A stretch of DNA of 64,000 nucleotides, from NCBI GenBank assembly GCA_903913215.1, contig CAIWKE010000002.1:1-64000 (forward strand), given 5' to 3'. Of this stretch, positions 32,573-41,176 are shown in pieces. The translations under genes were made by a program, and so were the position numbers. Each line of letters begins with the position of its first letter. The first letter of the stretch is position 1. The notes below the pieces were generated by a model that did no database searches, was not told where the DNA came from, and was given only the letters and a program-made list of their open reading frames with translations. This stretch comes from an uncultured Holophagaceae bacterium (GTDB lineage Bacteria; Acidobacteriota; Holophagae; Holophagales; Holophagaceae).

Positions 32573-33376
32573 CTAGAACTTGAACTTCTTGTCGCGGATG
32601 GCTTCCTGGATCGGCACAGGAATGCTGTACCGACCTGGGGCTGGGGGCAGCAGATCCTGGTTGGCCTTGCCCAGGACGCCGCACTGGTCCAGCAGGAGTT
32701 GGCGCAGCGTGATGCCCGTGGTGAAGGGCTTGCGGCCAGTCTTGAGCGTGGGGATCGAGTCCCCACCGCCGTAGAGGTAGTCCGAGGTGGCCACCTTCAC
32801 CGTGGCCTTGGGATCAATGAGGCTGCCATCAGCCCAGGTGACCGTCAGGATGCCCTTCTCGGGGCTGCCCTCCACCCTGGCGATGATGCCAGAGCAGGGC
32901 TCGCCCCCCCTCCGTGCGATGCCTTCGCTCACGACCTGGATTAGTTCGGCACCCGTGAGTTCCACCACCACCAGCTCGTTCTCGAAGGGCATCAGCTCGA
33001 AGATGTCGGCCACCTTCAGCTGGCCCGCACGCAGGTTGGAGCGCAGTCCACCGGCATTGGTGATGGCGAAGCGCACAGGCGCGTTGATGGCACCCTGGGC
33101 GGCCAGGCGCATGGCGTCCGCCACCCAGTAGCCCAGCAGGTTCTCCTCGCCACGGCGGCCCCGGAACAGGCCCTGGGGTGCCTTCACCAGGGGCAGGTCG
33201 AAGGTGGCCTTGATCTCCGCCGCCAGGGGCGCGATCACCTTCTGGATCTCAGGATCTTCAGGGATGGCGGCGTTCACCGGGAGCACGACGCCCTTGGCCG
33301 GAGGCACCGGGGTCTGGGCCGCCAAAGACAGCCCCAGGAGCGCCGGGAGAAGGAGGCTAAAGGGCTTCAAATTCAC
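32573..33376 (-). CDS. 5'-nucleotidase C-terminal domain protein
   Basis: A signal peptide ('LKPFSLLLPALLGLSLAAQ') is followed by the 5_nucleotid_C fold: 'LLGYWVADAMRLAAQ', 'FAITNAGGLRSNLRAGQL', 'VADIFELMPFENELVVVELT' and 'VATSDYLYGGGDSI'. In full-length UshA this half supplies substrate specificity after the metallophosphatase domain. Here it is an independent 267-residue secreted protein placed before, not after, the catalytic half in the transcript. The GTG at 33376 has GAGGTG eight bases upstream and lies inside the end of the preceding membrane gene, an overlap that suggests coupling. Confidence 0.87.
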   Translation of the reverse strand: MNLKPFSLLLPALLGLSLAAQTPVPPAKGVVLPVNAAIPEDPEIQKVIAPLAAEIKATFDLPLVKAPQGLFRGRRGEENLLGYWVADAMRLAAQGAINAPVRFAITNAGGLRSNLRAGQLKVADIFELMPFENELVVVELTGAELIQVVSEGIARRGGEPCSGIIARVEGSPEKGILTVTWADGSLIDPKATVKVATSDYLYGGGDSIPTLKTGRKPFTTGITLRQLLLDQCGVLGKANQDLLPPAPGRYSIPVPIQEAIRDKKFKF

Positions 33377-34283
33377 TGGGGGGCACCTCGAGGGCGGCGC
33401 GGGCATCCCGCACCAGGACATCCTGGATCCAGAAATGGGTGACGGCGCGGAGCAGCCAGCCCATGAGCCAGGCATTGATGGCGGTGACAAGCAGCAGCAG
33501 CAGCAGGAAGAGCCAGACCCGGAAGCTGGTGCTTCCGCCCATGCGCCAGGCCAGCAGCAGCACCAGGGAAGGCAGCAGGGCGCGCAGGGCGGCGCCGCCG
33601 AGGTTCAGGAGGGTCCACTGCACGGGGTGGGACCAGAGGCGCAGGAAGCTGTCCTTCAAGTGGGTTCGGTAGCCGCGCTTCAGGCCCGCGGCGCGGCCCA
33701 GGCGGCAGAACCACCACTGGAGGTTCAGGGCAGCGATCAGGGCCATCCAGAAGAGGGGGCGGCCGATGAAGGCTGCCCAGCCCAGGCCGTCGATGCCAAT
33801 GCCGCCGATCCGACCCAGGACCCAGGATGTAATGAAGACCACGAGACCCAGGGGCAGCAAGCCGATGAGCAGGGTGTCCAGGGCTCCCAGCAGCCAGGGG
33901 CCCAGGCGCGCCTTCACCCCTACGTGTTCGGCCTGCATGCGCCAGCCGCACCAGAGCACGATCACCAGGCCCAGGCCCATGAGGTGCACGGTGGGGGAAT
34001 TCGTAAGTCGATATTTGAGGCCGCCGTTCTCCATGAGTTCCCAGATATCCCGGGCGCTGATCTGCTCACCCCAGTGGGAGGGCAGGGCGCTCCAACCCGC
34101 GGCGCGACGGAGATGTCCCGCCCAGCCCAGGGCCGGGCCCAGGAGGGTCAGCAGCCAGCCCGCGATGAGGCCCCAGCCCCAGCGCGTGAACCCGCCCGGC
34201 AGGGCCGCCGAGAGAAAAGTCCATGGCGCCCGGGGCGACAGGTCCTCTTCGGTGTGGATGGTGGTGGGGCGCGTGGATTCCAT
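33357..34283 (-). CDS. Multi-pass membrane protein of unknown function
   Basis: About 308 residues with several long hydrophobic segments: 'WGLIAGWLLTLLGPALGWA', 'LMGLGLVIVLWCGW', 'LLIGLLPLGLVVFITSWVLG', 'FWMALIAALNLQWWFC' and 'VWLFLLLLLLVTAINAWLMG'. The pattern suggests six or so membrane passes with a short C-terminal tail. I recognise no family. It overlaps the start of the 5'-nucleotidase C-terminal gene, so the three genes form one unit. The start could be 34283 or 34307; neither has a good ribosome site. It is divergent from the trp leader. Confidence 0.65.
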   Translation of the reverse strand: MESTRPTTIHTEEDLSPRAPWTFLSAALPGGFTRWGWGLIAGWLLTLLGPALGWAGHLRRAAGWSALPSHWGEQISARDIWELMENGGLKYRLTNSPTVHLMGLGLVIVLWCGWRMQAEHVGVKARLGPWLLGALDTLLIGLLPLGLVVFITSWVLGRIGGIGIDGLGWAAFIGRPLFWMALIAALNLQWWFCRLGRAAGLKRGYRTHLKDSFLRLWSHPVQWTLLNLGGAALRALLPSLVLLLAWRMGGSTSFRVWLFLLLLLLVTAINAWLMGWLLRAVTHFWIQDVLVRDARAALEVPPSEFEAL

Positions 34284-34317
34284 GGCCGTCCAGAAGCAAT
34301 CTTCCATCAAACCACAC

Positions 34318-34347
34318 TTGACAGGGAGCACCCCAACCGGGTTTCAT
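34318..34347 (+). promoter_or_regulatory. Candidate trp operon promoter
   Basis: A perfect TTGACA lies at 34318-34323, and TTTCAT (four of six matches to TATAAT) at 34342-34347, with an 18-base spacer. The transcript would begin near 34354, at or next to the leader ATG at 34355, so the leader ORF may be read from a nearly leaderless message. That fits its lack of a Shine-Dalgarno sequence. Confidence 0.5.
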
Positions 34348-34354
34348 CGCTCTC

Positions 34355-34447
34355 ATGCAGCTGTGCTCCTCGACCTCTCGCCAGGGCCTCCTCCACGGGG
34401 GTTGGTGGTGGCGCGTGGGCTCGGACTGCTCCCTGTGCGAGGCCTAG
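34355..34447 (+). CDS. trpL: trp operon leader peptide (attenuation sensor)
   Basis: A 30-codon ORF opens with ATG and ends at TAG 34445-34447. Codons 17-19 (34403-34411) are three consecutive TGG, giving 'HGGWWWRVG'. Trp codons are rare, so three in a row in a tiny ORF directly before trpE strongly indicates a tryptophan-sensing leader. It lies between a promoter candidate and a terminator that precedes trpE. When tryptophan is short, the ribosome should stall at 34403-34411 and leave 34417-34424 free to form the antiterminator. It is far below normal gene-calling length and has no clear ribosome site. Confidence 0.85.
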   Translation: MQLCSSTSRQGLLHGGWWWRVGSDCSLCEA

Positions 34448-34500
34448 CGGCCTAAGCCCTTCAGGAACTTCCGAGCCCGACCCTGTGGTCGGGCTTTTTT
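34417..34500 (+). promoter_or_regulatory. trp attenuator (antiterminator and terminator)
   Basis: The terminator stem is gcccgacc (34475-34482) with ggtcgggc (34487-34494), loop of four, then T6 at 34495-34500. The competing antiterminator pairs gggctcgg (34417-34424, just after the Trp codons) with ccgagccc (34471-34478), eight perfect base pairs that consume the left terminator arm. A pause-type stem, ggcctc (34385-34390) with gaggcc (34439-34444), is also possible. This matches the classical 1:2, 2:3, 3:4 layout. Confidence 0.85.
34475..34500 (+). terminator. Intrinsic terminator of the trp leader
   Basis: Eight-base-pair perfect GC-rich stem, four-base loop, and six T residues, placed 17-42 bases before trpE. 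It would end trpE transcription when the leader is fully translated. Confidence 0.9.
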
Positions 34501-34516
34501 GTTGATGGATGCAACC

Positions 34517-35917
34517 ATGTCCCCAGCCCCCAAGCACCTGATTCGGCACCCGCTCCCCGCGGACCTGCTGACGCCCCTGGCGGCCTACCTGGCCCTGCGC
34601 CCCGCGGGCGCCAGCCTCCTGCTGGAGTCCTGCGACCAGGGCGAGCGCGTAGGTCGGCACAGTTTCGTGCTGCTGGAAGGGGAAGACGAGGTCCGCCTGG
34701 AGGCGCCAGCCACCGGCTGGGTGGAGGCCCTTCGGGACTTGGCTGGCGCTGCACCGGCCTCCAGCATGCACGATCCAGGTTCGGCTCTGCCGCCCCTACG
34801 CGAAGGCCTGCCCGTGGGCGTGGGCTGTGCCGGGTATCTCGGTTTCGAGGCAATGGGGGCCAGCGAGCCCACCCTCCCCTTGCCCGCCAACAACACCCTG
34901 GGCCTGCCCTGCCTCTGGGTGCGCCGCTTCGACACGGCCCTGGTCTTCGACCACCTGCACCAGGTGGCGGAACTGCAGACTCTCAGCGCCCGGCCCGAGG
35001 CGGGCTTTACGCGCCTGGCCGCCCTGCGGGCACGGCTCCTGGCGGGAGTGGGCGATCCCGGGCCTTCCACCGCGCAACCTGTGGCCCAGGCCCTCAGCAG
35101 CCGGGAAGCCTACGAGAGCCACGTGCGCCGTGCCCAGGAGCTGATCCTCGACGGGGATATCTACCAGCTGGTGCCCAGCCAGCGCTTCCGCGTCACCAAC
35201 CCGCCGCCTCCGCTGGAGGCCTACCGTCGCCTCCGCCGCCTCAATCCCAGCCCCTACGGCTACCTCCTGGAGTGGGGTGGCTTCGCCCTGGTGGGCGCCT
35301 CGCCAGAGATGCTGGTGCAAGTGCAGGGCCGGGAAGCGGAGACCCTGCCCATCGCGGGCACCGTGCCCCGGGGGGGCAGCACCGAGGAGGACGCCTCCCG
35401 CTTCGAGGCCCTCAAGCGCGATCCCAAGGAGTTGGCGGAGCACCAGATGCTGGTGGACCTGGCCCGCAACGATCTGGGCCGCGTGGCCGTGCCCGGCGGC
35501 GTGCGGGTGGAGAAGCCCCTGGCCCTCCAGCGCACGAGCCACGTGCTACACCTCACCACTACCGTGAAGGCCGAGCTGAAGCCGGGCCTGGATGCCCTGG
35601 ATGTGCTGGAGGCCGCCTTCCCCGCGGGCACCGTGAGCGGGGCGCCCAAGCTGCGGGCCTGCCAGCGCATCGCCGAGTTGGAGGGCGAGGTGCGCGGCCC
35701 CTATGGCGGCGTGCTGCTGCGCCTGGGCGCCGATGGTGTCCTGGATACGGCCCTCATCCTCCGCACGGCGGTCTACAGCGGCGCCGCCGCCTACATCCAG
35801 GCGGGCGCGGGCGTGGTGCGGGCGTCCAACCCCACGTCGGAATACTTCGAGACCCTGCACAAGCTGGGGGCCATCGCCCAGGCCCTGGGCGTGCAGCTGG
35901 ACGGAGGTGCCCGATGA
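34517..35917 (+). CDS. trpE: Anthranilate synthase component I
   Basis: TrpE makes anthranilate from chorismate with the glutamine amidotransferase TrpG. The product is about 466 residues. The N-terminal feedback-inhibition motif 'LLES' lies near residue 35. The chorismate-binding half shows 'GDIYQLVPSQRF', 'LVGASPEMLV', 'LPIAGTVPRGGSTEEDASRF', 'EHQMLVDLARNDLGRVA' and 'FPAGTVSGAPKLRA'. The start is either ATG 34517 or ATG 34505; a GGATG precedes the former. It overlaps trpG by ATGA. Expression should be controlled by the attenuator just upstream. Confidence 0.95.
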   Translation: MSPAPKHLIRHPLPADLLTPLAAYLALRPAGASLLLESCDQGERVGRHSFVLLEGEDEVRLEAPATGWVEALRDLAGAAPASSMHDPGSALPPLREGLPVGVGCAGYLGFEAMGASEPTLPLPANNTLGLPCLWVRRFDTALVFDHLHQVAELQTLSARPEAGFTRLAALRARLLAGVGDPGPSTAQPVAQALSSREAYESHVRRAQELILDGDIYQLVPSQRFRVTNPPPPLEAYRRLRRLNPSPYGYLLEWGGFALVGASPEMLVQVQGREAETLPIAGTVPRGGSTEEDASRFEALKRDPKELAEHQMLVDLARNDLGRVAVPGGVRVEKPLALQRTSHVLHLTTTVKAELKPGLDALDVLEAAFPAGTVSGAPKLRACQRIAELEGEVRGPYGGVLLRLGADGVLDTALILRTAVYSGAAAYIQAGAGVVRASNPTSEYFETLHKLGAIAQALGVQLDGGAR

Positions 35918-36492
35918 TCCTCCTCATCGACGCGCTGGATTCCTTCACCTACAACCTGGTGCAGGCGTTTGAAACGTTGGGCCGCGAGGTCAAGGTCGTT
36001 CGCCACGACGCCATCACCCTGGCCGAGGCCAAGGCGCTGGCTCCCGAGGCCGTGGTGCTCTCGCCCGGTCCCGGGCACCCCACCGAAAGCCCAGCCCATA
36101 TGGCTTTGGCAGGCTCGGACTGGAACGTCCCGCTGCTGGGTGTCTGCCTGGGCCACCAGGCCCTGGCCGCCGCCACGGGTGGCAAAGTGGGCCGGGCCAT
36201 CGAACCCCTGCATGGAGAGGCCACGCCCCTGGACCACGACGGCACGGGACTCTTCCAGGGCCTGCCCAAGGGCCTGCCTGTGGGCCGGTACCACAGCCTC
36301 ATCGCCGAGCCCGCCTCGCTGCCCGCCTGCTGGCGCGTGACGGGCCGGAGCCACGGCGGCGAGATCATGGCCATGGCTCATCTGAGCCTGCCCCGCTGGG
36401 GCGTGCAGTTCCACCCCGAAAGCATCCTCACGCCGGACGGTCCGGCCATGCTGGCGAACTTCCTCCGCCTGGCCCAGGAGGCATCCCGATGA
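35914..36492 (+). CDS. trpG: Anthranilate synthase component II (glutamine amidotransferase)
   Basis: The 192-residue class I amidotransferase supplies ammonia to TrpE. It starts 'MILLIDALDSFTYNLVQAF'. The oxyanion strand is 'VLSPGPGHP', the nucleophile Cys is in 'GVCLGHQAL', and the His-Glu pair is in 'WGVQFHPESILT'. A specificity segment is 'VGRYHSLIAEP'. It overlaps both neighbours by four bases. It could also serve folate synthesis as PabA, which is common when only one such subunit exists. Confidence 0.94.
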   Translation: MILLIDALDSFTYNLVQAFETLGREVKVVRHDAITLAEAKALAPEAVVLSPGPGHPTESPAHMALAGSDWNVPLLGVCLGHQALAAATGGKVGRAIEPLHGEATPLDHDGTGLFQGLPKGLPVGRYHSLIAEPASLPACWRVTGRSHGGEIMAMAHLSLPRWGVQFHPESILTPDGPAMLANFLRLAQEASR

Positions 36493-37526
36493 CCCTGCTC
36501 ACCACCCACAACCCCAGCCGCCCCCTGCCCGAGGCCACTGCTTCGGAGCTCATGCGCATCTTCATCGACCAGGACACGGACGCCCTGCTGGTGGGGGCCT
36601 GCCTGGCCCTGCTGGCCCAGCGGGCGCCCGAGGCCCACGAACTGGCGGCCTTTGCCGAGGCCCTCGCGGATGTGGCCGTACCCTTTCCGGCCTGCCCTGC
36701 GGACGCCATCGACGTGGTGGGCACCGGCGGCGACGGCATCTCCACGGCGAACCTCAGCACCCTCACGGCCCTGTTGCTGGCTGATTTCGGCGTGCCGGTG
36801 GTGAAGCATGGGAACCGCGCCGCCACGGGGGTTTGTGGCAGCGCGGATCTCATGGAGGCCCTGGGCTACGACCTCTCCCGGGCCAGTTCGGACCTGATGG
36901 CTGATCTGCCGCTCCGGCACTTCGCCTTCCTTTTCGCCCCTGCCTACCACCCACTGCTGGGCCGTCTGCGGGAGATCCGCAAGCGCCTGGGCATCCCCAC
37001 CATCTTCAACCTGCTGGGCCCCCTACTGAATCCGGCCCAGCCGCCCCTGCAGGTGCTGGGCGTGGCCCGGGAGGACCTCATGCAGCCCATGGCCGGAGCC
37101 CTGGCGCGGCGGGGCAGTCTGCGGCGGGCCTTCGTGATCCACGGCAAGGACGCCGAGGGCCGGGGGATGGATGAGGCCTCCATCGAGGGGCCCACCGTGG
37201 TCGTGGAAGTGGACGCGGGCCAGGTGCTCGGCCGCCGGGTGCTCGTGCCCCGGGATCTGGGCCTGAGCCAGCCGGTGGCCGGTGCCCTCCACGTGCGGGA
37301 CCGGGCCCAGGCCCTGGCCGTGGCCCGGGGACTCTTCGCGGGCGCCGCCCATGCGGACTTCCGGCCCGCCGTGGCGGATGCCGTGGCCCTGCAGACGGGC
37401 TTGGGTCTCCTGCTCCATCGCGGACTCGGCCTGGATGGCATCGGCGCCGCGTTCCTGGAGGCCCGCGCGCGCCTGGACCGGGGCTTCACACTGCCCTTTC
37501 CACCGCCTCTGGGGGAGCGCCCATGA
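36489..37526 (+). CDS. trpD: Anthranilate phosphoribosyltransferase
   Basis: TrpD joins anthranilate to PRPP. The 345-residue protein carries the typical 'DVVGTGGDGISTANLST' PRPP loop, 'VVKHGNRAATGVCGSADLME' (anthranilate-side), 'FLFAPAYHPLL' and 'NLLGPLLNPAQP'. Its position between trpG and trpC, with ATGA overlaps at both ends, is the common trpEGDC order. Nothing is unusual about its length or motifs. Confidence 0.95.
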   Translation: MTLLTTHNPSRPLPEATASELMRIFIDQDTDALLVGACLALLAQRAPEAHELAAFAEALADVAVPFPACPADAIDVVGTGGDGISTANLSTLTALLLADFGVPVVKHGNRAATGVCGSADLMEALGYDLSRASSDLMADLPLRHFAFLFAPAYHPLLGRLREIRKRLGIPTIFNLLGPLLNPAQPPLQVLGVAREDLMQPMAGALARRGSLRRAFVIHGKDAEGRGMDEASIEGPTVVVEVDAGQVLGRRVLVPRDLGLSQPVAGALHVRDRAQALAVARGLFAGAAHADFRPAVADAVALQTGLGLLLHRGLGLDGIGAAFLEARARLDRGFTLPFPPPLGERP

Positions 37527-38353
37527 GCCAGCTGCCTGAACCCCGCGCCCTGGTGCGGGCCGCGGCCCTTGCTCCCAGCCACTTGCTGCGGGTGCTCGAG
37601 GCGGAACTGGAGCGGCTGGAATCTGCAACAACGCGAAATCCTGCTGCATTCGTTCCGCGCCAAACCTCTGGCGCCTTCGAGGCGGCTCTGCGCCGCGATG
37701 CTGCCCGGGGCGGCGCCATCATCGCCGAGTACAAGCAGGCCTCCCCTTCGCTGGGGCCCTTTGCCCTGGGCACGCCCCTGCTGCCCCAGCTCCGGGCCTA
37801 CCGGGAGGGCGGCGCCGCGGCCTTTTCGATCCTGGCGGAGCCCACCTACTTCAAGGGTTCGGCCGAGCACCTGCGGGCCGCAGCAGAGCTGGGACTGCCC
37901 CGCCTCTACAAGGGCTTCGTCATCTCCGAAGCGCAACTGGATGAGGCCGCGGCTGTGGGCGCGGAGGCGGTGTTGCTCATCGCCCGGGTTCTGCGGGAGC
38001 ACACGGCGGCCTTCGCCGAAGCGGCCCGGGCCCGGGGCATGGAGCCCCTGGTGGAGCTGCACGACCTCACGGAGGTGCCCTTTGCCCAGGCGGCAGGCGC
38101 TCGTCTGGTGGGCATCAATGCCCGGGACCTGGCCACCTTCACCCTGGGTGCCCCTACCGCCGAGCCTTTGCGCCGGGCCTTTCCCGAGGCCCTGTTGATC
38201 CGCGAGTCGGGCTTGGCCACGGTGGAGGAAGCCCGCCAGGCCCTGCGCGCAGGCTTCGACGCGGTGCTCATGGGCGAGGCCCTCATGCGCAGCCCCGACC
38301 CCGCCGACTTCCTGGGCCGCATCCTGGCTGATCTGCGCCCGGTGGCCCCATGA
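37523..38353 (+). CDS. trpC: Indole-3-glycerol phosphate synthase
   Basis: TrpC closes the indole ring from CdRP. In the 276-residue product the TIM-barrel catalytic residues can be placed: Glu and Lys in 'AEYKQASPS', Lys in 'LYKGFVIS', Glu in 'LVELHDLTE', Asn in 'VGINARDL' and Ser in 'IRESGLA'. Two usual motif positions vary: the common KDF is KGF and the common N-N-R is N-A-R. The essential side chains are kept, so activity is expected. It overlaps trpD and trpF by ATGA. Confidence 0.93.
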   Translation: MSQLPEPRALVRAAALAPSHLLRVLEAELERLESATTRNPAAFVPRQTSGAFEAALRRDAARGGAIIAEYKQASPSLGPFALGTPLLPQLRAYREGGAAAFSILAEPTYFKGSAEHLRAAAELGLPRLYKGFVISEAQLDEAAAVGAEAVLLIARVLREHTAAFAEAARARGMEPLVELHDLTEVPFAQAAGARLVGINARDLATFTLGAPTAEPLRRAFPEALLIRESGLATVEEARQALRAGFDAVLMGEALMRSPDPADFLGRILADLRPVAP

Positions 38354-38970
38354 AGATTCTGGCCAAGGTCTGCGGCCTGGTGCGCGCTGAGGATGTGGCG
38401 CAGGCCGCAGCGGTCGGTGCAGACCTATTGGGCTTCGTGTGCCATCCGCCCAGTCCCCGCCATTGCGCGGATCTTGGCGTCGCCACGCCCTACCTGGATC
38501 GCGCCGTGCTGGTGATGGTGGCGGATGACCCCGAGACCATCCTCGCCCAGGCCCGGCTGCACGGCTTCCGCTGTGTCCAGCCTTATCTCCCGGCTGCAGG
38601 CCGGGAGCAGGCGATCAATCTGCTGCGCCAAGCGGGCCAGATGATCCTGCTGCCCTGGGCGGATGAGCCGGGGCAGGCCCTCATCCGGGCCGACTGGTAT
38701 CTCTGGGAACCCAGCGCCAAGGTCACCGGTGTGCTGGGCGGGTCGGGGCAGGGCCACGCGTTCAGCCACCCGCCGCCGGGGCACTTCCTGCTGGCGGGAG
38801 GGCTGGATGGCGCCAATGTCCAGGCTCGGTTTGCAGCCCTCCCCATTGCCCTGCGAAGCCAGTTCCGGGGGGTGGACGCCGCCAGCCGCCTGGAGGCCGC
38901 CCCGGGCCTCAAAGATCCTCTCAAAGTCAGTGCCTTCGTTGCCGCCGCCCACGCTCTGGAGTTCCCATGA
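38350..38970 (+). CDS. trpF: Phosphoribosylanthranilate isomerase, divergent
   Basis: TrpF isomerises PRA to CdRP. The 206-residue protein starts 'MKILAKVCGLVRAEDVAQAA' (catalytic Cys in KVCG) and keeps 'PPSPRH' and the phosphate-binding 'LAGGLDGANV' and 'GVDAASRLEAAPGLKDP'. It departs from the family at several sites. The usual VQLHG is 'VQPYLP', and the segment that usually has the catalytic Asp (LLLDS) reads 'WYLWEPSAK', giving Glu at that place. Position in the operon strongly supports the call. It may be slow or tuned. Confidence 0.85.
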   Translation: MKILAKVCGLVRAEDVAQAAAVGADLLGFVCHPPSPRHCADLGVATPYLDRAVLVMVADDPETILAQARLHGFRCVQPYLPAAGREQAINLLRQAGQMILLPWADEPGQALIRADWYLWEPSAKVTGVLGGSGQGHAFSHPPPGHFLLAGGLDGANVQARFAALPIALRSQFRGVDAASRLEAAPGLKDPLKVSAFVAAAHALEFP

Positions 38971-40151
38971 CCGCCGGATTCAAACTACCGACCCGCTTTG
39001 GCGCCCAGGCTCTGGGCGGCTGTTACGCGCCGGAAACCCTCATGCAGCCCTTGCTGGATCTTGAGGCGGCCTTCCGCGCCGCCGTGGAAGACCCGGCCTT
39101 CCTGGCTGAGCTGAGAGGTGAACTGCGCCACTTCGTGGGTCGGCCCACGCCACTCACCCCTGCGCCGCGCCTGGCCGCGCAGCTGGGGCTGAAGGCCCTC
39201 TTCCTCAAGCGGGAGGACCTCACCCATACCGGCGCCCACAAGATCAACAACGCCCTGGCCCAGGCCATCCTGGCCCGCCGCATGGGCAAGACCGAGATCA
39301 TCGCCGAGACCGGCGCGGGCCAGCATGGCGTGGCCACCGCCGCCGCCTGTGCGCGCCTGGGCCTGGCCTGCACTGTGTACATGGGCGTCACGGACATGGC
39401 CCGTCAGGCCCCCAACGTGGCCCGCATGCGCCTCTTCGGCGCCAAGGTGGAGCCTGTGGCAGCAGGGCAGGGCACCCTCAAGGAGGCCGTGAACGAGGCC
39501 CTGCGGGCCTGGGCGGGCCAGTGCGACCGAGCCCACTACATCCTGGGATCGGCCCTGGGGCCCCATCCCTTTCCGACCATGGTGCGCACCTTCCAGACCG
39601 TCATCGGTGAGGAGGCTCGCGCCCAGGTGCTGGAGCAGACGGGCAGCCTGCCTGAGGTGGTCCTGGCCTGCGCAGGTGGGGGCAGCAACGGCCTGGGCCT
39701 GTTGGTGCCCTTCCTGGGTGATCCCGTGCGGCGCGTGGCCGTTGAAGCGGGCGGCCATGGCGCAGACCTGGGCCAGCATGCGGCGCGCCTCGATGGTGGT
39801 CGCATGGGCGTCCTGCACGGCTGCAAGACCCTGCTGCTGCAAGATGAACACGGCCACACCGCCGAAACCGCCAGCATCAGCGCGGGTCTGGACTATCCCT
39901 CCCTGGGGCCCGAGCTGGCGGCCCTGGTGCTGGACGGCAAGGTGGAGGTGCGGCGGGCCTCGGACGAAGAGGCCCTCCAGGGCGCCCGCCAGCTCTGCAT
40001 GGCCGAAGGCATCCTGCCAGCCCTGGAGAGCAGCCACGCCCTGGCCCTCCTGCCAGCCCTCGCCGCCGAAGGCGCCGCCACCGTGCTCCTCGGCCTCAGC
40101 GGGCGAGGCGACAAGGACCTATCCACATACCAGGCAAGGCTGGGGATCTAG
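38967..40151 (+). CDS. trpB: Tryptophan synthase beta subunit
   Basis: TrpB condenses indole with serine. The 394-residue PLP enzyme contains the Schiff-base lysine in 'LTHTGAHKINNALAQ', 'IAETGAGQHGVATAAACARL' after it, the glycine-rich phosphate loop 'CAGGGSNGLG', and 'ALAAEGAATVLLGLSGRGDKD' at the end. It is the TrpB1 type that pairs with TrpA. After it the overlap chain of the operon breaks: trpA is 269 bases away, beyond a palindromic repeat. Confidence 0.95.
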   Translation: MTAGFKLPTRFGAQALGGCYAPETLMQPLLDLEAAFRAAVEDPAFLAELRGELRHFVGRPTPLTPAPRLAAQLGLKALFLKREDLTHTGAHKINNALAQAILARRMGKTEIIAETGAGQHGVATAAACARLGLACTVYMGVTDMARQAPNVARMRLFGAKVEPVAAGQGTLKEAVNEALRAWAGQCDRAHYILGSALGPHPFPTMVRTFQTVIGEEARAQVLEQTGSLPEVVLACAGGGSNGLGLLVPFLGDPVRRVAVEAGGHGADLGQHAARLDGGRMGVLHGCKTLLLQDEHGHTAETASISAGLDYPSLGPELAALVLDGKVEVRRASDEEALQGARQLCMAEGILPALESSHALALLPALAAEGAATVLLGLSGRGDKDLSTYQARLGI

Positions 40152-40420
40152 ATTCCTGGCTTCATGGAACACAAATGAACGAGCCGCAAAGGAAAAGATG
40201 AAATGGCCACAAAGAACACAGAGGGCACAAAGGGCACAAAGAAAAGCCTGGCCCCCACTGGAACCTCGTCTCCTTTGTGCCCTTTGTGTTCTTTGTGGCT
40301 GAATCCTATTTCAGTGCGAAGTTCTGTGGCTCCATGCCTTGGGCGATCCTCCCGGCAGGCAATCTCTGCGGTGAAATCCTTCTAGTACTTTGCGATGTTG
40401 ATTTCTGAAAGGGCGCACGA
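40152..40420. other. trpB-trpA spacer containing a repeat
   Basis: The 269-base spacer is filled mainly by the palindromic repeat at 40206-40299. No gene is seen. An AAAGGG eight bases before trpA should serve as its ribosome site. The other trp genes overlap, so this spacer is probably an insertion into a once-continuous operon. Confidence 0.6.
40206..40299. repeat. Palindromic repeat in the trp operon, family B copy 3
   Basis: The left arm (gccacaaagaacacagaggg... cacaaagg) and the right arm (40273-40299, ctttgtgccctttgtg then ttctttgtggc) are inverted complements with one mismatch over about 27 bases, separated by about 30 bases. It would form a long stem in the trp transcript between trpB and trpA. 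Confidence 0.85.
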
Positions 40421-41176
40421 ATGAATCCTCTCCTTCCCTTCTTGATGGCCGGTGACCCTTCCCTGGAGGCTCTGCCAGGGCTGCTTTCCGAGGCCAAAGC
40501 CCTCGGCCTGGAGGCTATCGAGCTGGGCCTGCCCCACTCGGATCCCATCGCGGACGGCCCGGTGCTGCAGGCGGCGGCTCACCGCGCCATCCAGCGGGGG
40601 GCCACGCCTCTCCGGGTGCTGGAGGCCCTGGCGGGTCTCTCGGACAGTCCCGACGTGGTTTTGTTCACGTACCTGAATCCGCTGCTGCAGATTGGTGCGG
40701 GCAACCTGCGGCGACTGCTGGCACCCACGCCCGTGAAGGCCCTCTTGGTGGTGGACCTGCCCTTTGGTGAAGAACCGGACTTCGAGCGGGAACTGCGGGA
40801 GGCGGGCTATCCCATGGTGCCCCTGCTGGCGCCCACCACCAGCCTAGCCAGAGCGCGGGAGCTGCTTTCGGAGCGGCCTGATCCGGGCCCGGGCCATTCC
40901 TTCGCCCAGCGCTTCGCCTACCTTGTGGCCCGCCTCGGCGTGACGGGGACGGGGCAGGGCACCGACCTGGGCCCCGTGGCGGGCCGGGTGCTGGATCTGC
41001 AGGCGGTGTCGGAACGACCCTTGGCCGTGGGCTTCGGGTTGTCGGATGCCAGCAGCCTGCAAGCCGTCCGAGCCTTGGGTGCTACACCCGTCATCGGCTC
41101 TGCTCTGGTGCAGGAACTGGCTGCCGGTGCGGCTCTGTCCGTGGTGCTGGCACCTCGAATGGTTGCTGATCGCTAG
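40421..41176 (+). CDS. trpA: Tryptophan synthase alpha subunit, shortened N-terminus
   Basis: TrpA cleaves indole-3-glycerol phosphate to indole, which is channelled to TrpB. Catalytic Glu and Asp are seen in 'AIELGLPHSDPIADGPVLQ'. The C-terminal phosphate-site motif is 'VGFGLSDASSLQAV' with 'VIGSALVQEL'. The protein begins directly at 'NPLLPFLMAGDPS', about 15-18 residues short of normal TrpA: the first helix is missing. An in-frame TGA at 40406 rules out an upstream start in this frame. Activity is plausible but altered stability or TrpB contact is possible. Confidence 0.92.
   Translation: MNPLLPFLMAGDPSLEALPGLLSEAKALGLEAIELGLPHSDPIADGPVLQAAAHRAIQRGATPLRVLEALAGLSDSPDVVLFTYLNPLLQIGAGNLRRLLAPTPVKALLVVDLPFGEEPDFERELREAGYPMVPLLAPTTSLARARELLSERPDPGPGHSFAQRFAYLVARLGVTGTGQGTDLGPVAGRVLDLQAVSERPLAVGFGLSDASSLQAVRALGATPVIGSALVQELAAGAALSVVLAPRMVADR

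Follow-up and report, generated by a model that had tools for sequence, protein, structure and literature searches.

Attenuation of trp operons by way of a translated leader is an old class of mechanism. In Escherichia coli, the leader ORF, trpL, is preceded by a 26-nt stretch that runs from the start site. For trpL of Sinorhizobium meliloti, which attenuates trpE(G), the ATG is reported to be the 5' end of the RNA and trans functions are reported for rnTrpL and peTrpL, at least in the excerpted account (PMC7298713). For the trp genes of Corynebacterium and Streptomyces, classical attenuation has been predicted from double or triple UGG codons and a G+C-rich terminator (PMC1262725, in excerpt). 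Outside proteobacteria and actinobacteria, trp attenuation is little described, as was maintained in the initial annotation of the locus discussed here and as the available part of a 2010 paper agrees (PMC2965389); in the openly licensed literature, we recognised no description of a trp leader peptide in Acidobacteria. Comparative analysis of the region upstream of trpE in a soil bacterium of the family Holophagaceae now reveals what is very probably a ribosome-mediated transcription attenuator of the trpEGDCFBA operon. What is added to the old class is a comparatively well-supported family in Acidobacteriota that stays below threshold in Rfam, is predicted to be leaderless and, to judge from the sequences, is common to two other phyla.

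The window, that is, the whole stretch of 64,000 nucleotides that was analysed, contains between positions 34318 and 34517, in this order, TTGACA, 18 bases, TTTCAT, 7 bases, ATG, three TGG codons, strand 2, TAG, strand 3, the terminator, T6 and trpE (Table 1). Three features by which the class is recognised are present: a short ORF in which Trp codons cluster, ahead of a trp gene, an intrinsic terminator, and an antiterminator that is incompatible with the terminator. The leader ORF translates as MQLCSSTSRQGLLHGGWWWRVGSDCSLCEA followed by the stop codon. The stretch GGGCTCGG at 34417-34424 is perfectly complementary to CCGAGCCC at 34471-34478, and the antiterminator helix reaches 9 bp with the addition of the pair between 34425 and 34470; four bases, 34475-34478, are common to the antiterminator and the terminator. 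A terminator scan recovers the same hairpin with two extra foot pairs (34473-34496). The initial annotation had placed the 30-codon ORF with its TGG triplet, an 8-bp antiterminator, and the terminator stem with T6 ahead of trpE at coordinates that are all exact, the antiterminator being one pair longer than proposed. When we scanned both strands of the 64 kb for an ATG ORF with two TGG codons within about four positions and a perfect-stem terminator at most 75 nt from the stop, this ORF was the single one found, and five mononucleotide shuffles of the window yielded no such arrangement. A palindrome, GGCC-TAGC-GGCC, spans the leader stop codon (34441-34452) and is seen in the rows of the genus, in part of them as the variant GGCC-TGAC-GGCC; it is absent from the other genera aligned.

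Table 1. Features of the trp leader and of the operon that follows it, with positions in the window
Feature	Position	Strand	Basis
-35 box TTGACA	34318..34323	+	sequence
probable -10 element TTTCAT	34342..34347	+	recurs at exact ATG distance in 34/60 leaders
leader peptide ORF, 30 aa	34355..34447	+	sequence and frame conservation in 60/60
possible hairpin 5' of and into the Trp codons (polymerase pause?), weak	34379..34407	+	shuffle z
three tandem Trp codons (sensor)	34403..34411	+	sequence
strand 2, antiterminator 5' arm, within leader ORF	34417..34425	+	pairing alignment and folding
strand 3, antiterminator 3' arm	34470..34478	+	last four bases are also the terminator foot
intrinsic terminator stem-loop (3:4), 8 bp	34475..34494	+	terminator scan and covariation
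U-tract T6	34495..34500	+	sequence
trpE	34517..35917	+	NCBIfam; under equivalog cut-off
trpG	35914..36492	+	NCBIfam; passes an equivalog cut-off
trpD	36489..37526	+	NCBIfam; passes an equivalog cut-off
trpC	37523..38353	+	NCBIfam; under equivalog cut-off
trpF	38350..38970	+	NCBIfam; weak, under equivalog cut-off
trpB	38967..40151	+	NCBIfam; passes an equivalog cut-off
trpA	40421..41176	+	NCBIfam; passes an equivalog cut-off

The order trpEGDCFBA, likewise proposed at the outset, is borne out by the seven genes that follow, which are named by NCBIfam, with trpE, trpC and trpF under the equivalog cut-offs. Besides its ATG at 34517, trpE has an in-frame alternative start, TTG at 34499. A gap of about 270 bases (40152-40420) separates trpB from trpA, whereas the preceding genes overlap. 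The long ORF 5' of the leader (33357-34331), for which no family scores over threshold, runs on the opposite strand, so that the terminator can serve the leader transcript alone. Could the operon also be subject to repression? The genome does encompass a TrpR-family gene (PF01371, 55 bits, over the cut-off; TIGR01321, 42.4 bits, under the cut-off) that directly precedes a trpB2-like gene (the pair at L230:1456-3159, contig C28), and a perfect 22-base palindrome, a candidate autoregulatory operator, overlaps the start of the TrpR-family gene (L230:1448-1469). Allowing up to three mismatches, we found no second copy of this palindrome in the genome and no E. coli-like trp operator in the window or in L230. 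Given that such an operator is missing from the window and that the palindrome is unique, attenuation may be the sole tryptophan control of the trpEGDCFBA operon.

A TrpE match at an E-value of 1e-60 or better is present in 61 of the 77 genomes of the family and in none of the other 16. Fifty-three of these proteins are of the Geothrix type (at least 70% identical across the matching part): 46 come from the genus of the window, itself included, and seven from genera g4, g5 and g6; the other eight show 40-44% identity. Among the best 80 matches, TrpE of Geothrix limicola, paludis, fuzhouensis, campi, terrae, rubra, fermentans and oryzisoli is 79-84% identical to that of the window, and TrpE from Holophagaceae and Acidobacteria metagenome bins, 70-87%. 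These names point to a Geothrix-like Holophagaceae bacterium as the source of the window. The leader is found 5' of all 53 Geothrix-type trpE genes in Holophagaceae (Acidobacteriota) and, together with seven loci from Lysobacterales and Opitutia that are discussed below, these make up the 60 leaders compared. Every one of the 60 contains at least two Trp codons (two, four apart, in L054), preserves the reading frame and encodes a peptide of 28-31 aa. The strand-2 core (34418-34425 in the window) lies 9 nt from the last Trp codon in 59 of the 60 leaders and 15, 12 or 21 nt from the first Trp codon in 45, 14 and 1 of them, respectively; the stop codon follows 24 or 27 nt past the start of the core in all 60. 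When the 77 family genomes were searched with a covariance model of the element, 54 gave exactly one match each; by coordinates, 53 of the 54 sit just 5' of TrpE matches, and the remaining one is in G055, where the TrpE match is missing. Because the other 53 matches are alignment rows or identical to such rows, this search demonstrates uniqueness rather than independent discovery.

What, then, appears to be under selection in the leader? Within the genus, codon 19 is Trp in all 44 distinct 30-residue ORFs, codon 18 in 35 and codon 17 in 31, with Tyr, Ser, Arg and Phe as the replacements at codons 17 and 18. Synonymous changes make up 26% in the leader frame, vs 33% and 47% in the two other frames; there is thus no excess that would point to selection on the peptide sequence, whereas the frame and the Trp codons do look selected.

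The pairing alignment includes 53 distinct rows, seven of the 60 leaders each being identical to another in the part aligned. In the antiterminator, 95.4% of the 477 cells pair and nine cells, in two pairs, are changed on both sides; in the terminator, 99.5% of the 423 cells pair and 22 cells, in three pairs, are changed on both sides. In 500 shuffles, neither helix is ever equalled in its percentage of paired cells, its count of cells with two-sided change or its covariation score; with the partners slid by 1-3 columns, pairing is at most 58.5%. The number of pairs with two-sided change is unremarkable, being reached by 97 (antiterminator) and 52 (terminator) of the 500 shuffles, and so is the count of additional pair types (424 and 433, respectively). 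At one antiterminator position that goes from C-G to U-A, all 53 rows pair (42 C-G, 6 U-A and 5 U-G); mapped onto a trpE tree for the genus, U-A requires five changes of state, of which well-supported branches force at least three, and one of the U-A rows is nested in a group of U-G rows. The 2:3 helix is lengthened by lineage-specific pairs; its outermost pair is missing in 14 of the 53 rows, and L029 has one mismatch within it. The check on relatives that had been set beforehand thus found the Trp run and the pairings conserved and did not refute the attenuator reading of the initial annotation, which gains support from the Trp codons of all 60 leaders and from the compensatory changes in both helices. 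At the level of sequence comparison, the ORF, its frame, the Trp codons, two mutually exclusive helices and a rigid geometry are established.

The same rigidity extends upstream. TTGACA is present in all 60 leaders, most of which had been extracted by that very string, so the telling fact is the distance from its first base to the ATG, which is 35-39 nt in all 60 (37 in 44 and 36 in 11). The spacer between TTGACA and TTTCAT is 17-18 bases; TTTCAT is a weak match to TATAAT, and a strict promoter scan reported no promoter at the leader. Inspection of the sequence directly 5' of the leader ATG detected no Shine-Dalgarno-like stretch. With this promoter spacing, transcription is expected to start at or next to the ATG, leaving no room for a ribosome-binding site, and the leader ORF is predicted to be leaderless, with its ATG no more than one or two bases from the transcription start. 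Several unrelated acidobacterial leaders, for example L208, L187, L213 and L222, look similarly leaderless by eye.

These observations suggest the following chain of events. Transcription would start at or beside the leader ATG, and the 5' end of the RNA would recruit a ribosome independently of any Shine-Dalgarno sequence. When charged tRNA-Trp is scarce, the ribosome would stall with a Trp codon in the A site; strand 2, whose first base is 14 nt downstream of that of the first Trp codon, would remain free and would pair with strand 3 as the latter emerges, sequestering four bases of the terminator foot, whereupon the polymerase would continue into trpEGDCFBA. With plentiful tryptophan, the ribosome would translate through strand 2, reach the stop codon 20 nt farther on and there separate strands 2 and 3, so that 3:4 would form and transcription would end at T6. 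Leaderless initiation, stalling, the response to tryptophan and the role of the ribosome as a divider are what we infer here.

Folding calculations bear on several of these steps. The ribosome footprint used extends 13 nt from the A-site codon and, on the basis of these 13 nt, a ribosome on a Trp codon leaves strand 2 free by geometry; in the leaders with the 12-nt spacing, such a footprint would cover the first base of the core. With the first Trp codon in the A site and strand 4 still unmade, the antiterminator has a mean probability of 0.99 (above 0.5 in 60 of 60 leaders); with the second Trp codon there, the mean is 0.89 (above 0.5 in 58 of 60). With the ribosome at the stop codon, the terminator alone is left (P 1.0). 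At equilibrium, the whole RNA with a stalled ribosome has a mean probability of 0.70 for the terminator vs 0.63 for the antiterminator, the two being partly compatible, and in the window the respective values are 0.98 and 0.02. Since the equilibrium favours the terminator in the stalled state, the model needs a kinetic advantage for 2:3, in that the antiterminator would win by forming first.

When tryptophan is plentiful, it would be the translating ribosome, rather than a 1:2 protector hairpin, that holds strands 2 and 3 apart. A candidate conserved 1:2 pairing of the initial ORF codons with strand 2 (GCTGTCC with GGACGGC) is suggestive on inspection, but it does not differ in duplex energy from shuffled or swapped partners, and hence this pairing is not claimed. 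As long as strand 3 is unmade, strand 2 pairs upstream (mean P 0.65; above 0.5 in 53 of 60), although such pairing does not stand out from shuffles. In ribosome-free leaders, 2:3 exceeds 0.5 in 58 of 60, the two others being Opitutia leaders with 0.49 and 0.44. The possible pause hairpin ahead of the Trp codons has z-scores mostly between -1 and -3 in leaders of the Geothrix genus (mononucleotide shuffles), -0.8 in the window, and about 0 in genus g6 and Lysobacterales.

Is this type of control confined to the Geothrix-type trpE? At seven of the eight family loci with TrpE of 40-44% identity (L056-L060, L062 and L063; genera g3, g7 and g9), a different Trp-rich short frame lies upstream, for example ...AWRWWPN... 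or ...TWNWSWWPQ...; the eighth divergent locus, L061, was not placed by tblastn. In these three genera, trpE is of different origin, and the type of control has been kept or regained. Across the phylum, TrpE (TIGR00564) is detected at an E-value of 1e-90 in 121 of 149 Acidobacteriota genomes. We scanned 88 trpE upstream regions outside Holophagaceae, from 85 genomes (three gave two regions) and about 73 genera by hand count, 30 of the 88 being the best-scoring places rather than an even sample. Twenty-two of the 88 contain an intrinsic terminator preceded by a short ORF that has two or more Trp codons within four positions, and in 66 the scan found no such arrangement; counted in this way, Cys, His, Met, Lys, Tyr and Phe codons give 1, 1, 2, 4, 7 and 8, respectively, with seven Tyr and seven Phe loci coinciding with Trp loci. 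For 20 of the 22 candidates (all but L143 and L162), pairing between the terminator arm and the sequence that follows the Trp run was scored, and z was -2 or lower in eight. Putative Trp-rich leaders are scattered through Acidobacteriota. A control in Geothrix detected no His or Ile/Val/Leu leader with a T-run at 11 hisG and eight ilvB loci (L251 and L241 were left out, and one hisG place had no locus); it is a weak control, since both upstream regions that were inspected end in another gene, where a leader need not be expected.

Trp-rich short ORFs followed by T-runs, with up to four consecutive Trp codons, were also seen at trpE loci of Ignavibacteriota (L129, L130, L133 and L134) and of Thermoleophilia/Actinomycetota (L122, L124 and L125), which are likely further groups with trp leaders.

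The relationships beyond the phylum are of a different kind. Among the best 80 matches, the TrpE proteins from outside Holophagaceae that are nearest to that of the window come from Lysobacterales (67-68% identity) and Opitutia (64-65%), and the next ones drop to about 43% or less. The outside homologues considered are the seven of these with at least 64% identity and an upstream region (L117, near a contig end, is without one), and in all seven the same leader is found with the same TTGACA spacing. Furthermore, trpG and trpD follow in all seven and trpC in six (in L112, it was not found within the 4.9 kb available). These leaders resemble that of the window in promoter spacing, Trp run, strands 2, 3 and 4, and the gene order trpE-G-D-C, but belong to other phyla, and their upper terminator stem covaries, with GGTC..GACC in place of GACC..GGTC. 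In the isolate Lysobacter silvestris AM20-91, the leader and the operon reside on a contig of 1.18 Mb, which excludes mis-binning as the explanation in this case; the sole other TrpE-like match in the L. silvestris genome at an E-value of 1e-20 is pabB (over the NCBIfam cut-off), which implies that the transferred operon stands in for a native trpE. In the TrpE tree, Lysobacterales and Opitutia join Holophagaceae on one long, fully supported branch, and Lysobacterales group with a g5 sequence (support 94/96, just under the mark of the tool). Given that the leader accompanies all 53 Geothrix-type trpE genes and all seven outside homologues, the promoter, the attenuator and the operon seem to have moved together between phyla. 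In one Opitutaceae bin, the transferred trp operon is preceded, at a distance of several hundred bases, by a tRNA gene (L111:1165-1238); tRNA genes are a common kind of integration site. A more far-reaching scenario, which we consider tentative and rather doubtful as a whole, is that of a mobile trp cassette with its own leaderless attenuator that spread among Acidobacteriota, Pseudomonadota and Verrucomicrobiota and displaced the native trpE, its switch lacking a protector hairpin, the ribosome dividing the RNA and an untranslated leader reading through by default. If true, such default read-through would be the opposite of superattenuation in E. coli.

Could a different mechanism account for these findings? 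The rival that fares best, albeit an unlikely one, holds that, beyond attenuation, the leaderless RNA left by termination or the leader peptide has a function in trans, in the manner of rnTrpL and peTrpL. The combination of a leaderless trpL with trp attenuation is on record for S. meliloti (PMC7298713, in excerpt), but a leader peptide that bears no sign of amino-acid selection argues against a peptide function. It is highly improbable that the Trp codons are incidental and the terminator answers to a non-translational sensor, such as a T-box, a TRAP-like protein or a riboswitch. A terminator and an antiterminator alone would indeed suit any sensor, but at the gathering threshold Rfam finds no family in the window and only a single tRNA in 17 related loci, the spacing from the Trp codons to strand 2 is nearly invariant, and 22 of the 88 other acidobacterial trpE regions have a Trp-rich ORF with a terminator of their own. 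Slightly less credible still is a TnaC-like arrest of the nascent peptide that senses free tryptophan, for which the presence of Trp in the leader peptide might be invoked; outside the Trp codons, however, the peptide varies with no sign of amino-acid selection, and arrest by excess tryptophan would, as we infer, wrongly induce a biosynthetic operon. A chance ORF over the terminator of a neighbouring gene, however common short ORFs are in G+C-rich DNA, can be practically dismissed, being refuted by the conservation in 60 of 60 leaders and at odds with the opposite orientation of the long ORF upstream.

In functional terms, the preferred reading, ribosome-mediated attenuation, implies a switch that probably turns the trp operon on when tryptophan is short, a principle familiar from E. 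coli that would here be conserved in a phylum where trp attenuation is hardly described. Sensor, amino acid and target operon are each identifiable by name, and in cultured species; promoter and attenuator occur with the same operon in different phyla, their geometry hardly altered; and the 60 natural variants are a resource on how much of the E. coli layout is needed.

How does this family compare with those already known? The Rfam model of the Trp_leader (RF00513) gives the window 17.7 bits, against a gathering score of 41. The model of the Burkholderia anti-hemB RNA (RF02837) matches 34418-34502 from end to end with 30.5 bits (gathering score 49.5), above the Trp_leader model, which probably reflects a resemblance of the motif formed by strands 2, 3 and 4. 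The conserved triple gGCC-rGCy-GGCC of actinobacteria (PMC1262725, in excerpt) has as its counterpart GGCTCGG / CCGAGCCCG / CGGGC in the Geothrix-type leaders. With trpL of S. meliloti, as far as the excerpted account goes, these would, by prediction, share trp attenuation and a leaderless ORF, but the S. meliloti peptide has 14 aa, compared to 28-31 aa in the Geothrix type, and belongs to a different phylum (PMC7298713).

The E. coli layout, to which the locus had been assigned in the initial annotation, applies in part. A short ORF with tandem Trp codons, ahead of trpE, and the mutually exclusive antiterminator and U-tract terminator are shared with trpL of E. coli, whereas the Geothrix-type leader is apparently leaderless, has its strand 2 within the ORF and lends no support to a 1:2 pairing. 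In E. coli, strand 2 comes after the trpL stop codon and would be masked by a ribosome positioned there; in all 60 leaders compared here, the stop codon lies beyond the strand-2 core. In the same kind of calculation, with assumed strand boundaries, strand 3 of the E. coli RNA pairs with strand 2 with a probability of 0.79 under a stalled ribosome; in the ribosome-free E. coli RNA, this value is 0.00 and that of 1:2 is 0.58. Thus, when free of ribosomes, the RNA of the Geothrix type forms 2:3 (mean P 0.96), whereas that of E. coli pairs 1:2.
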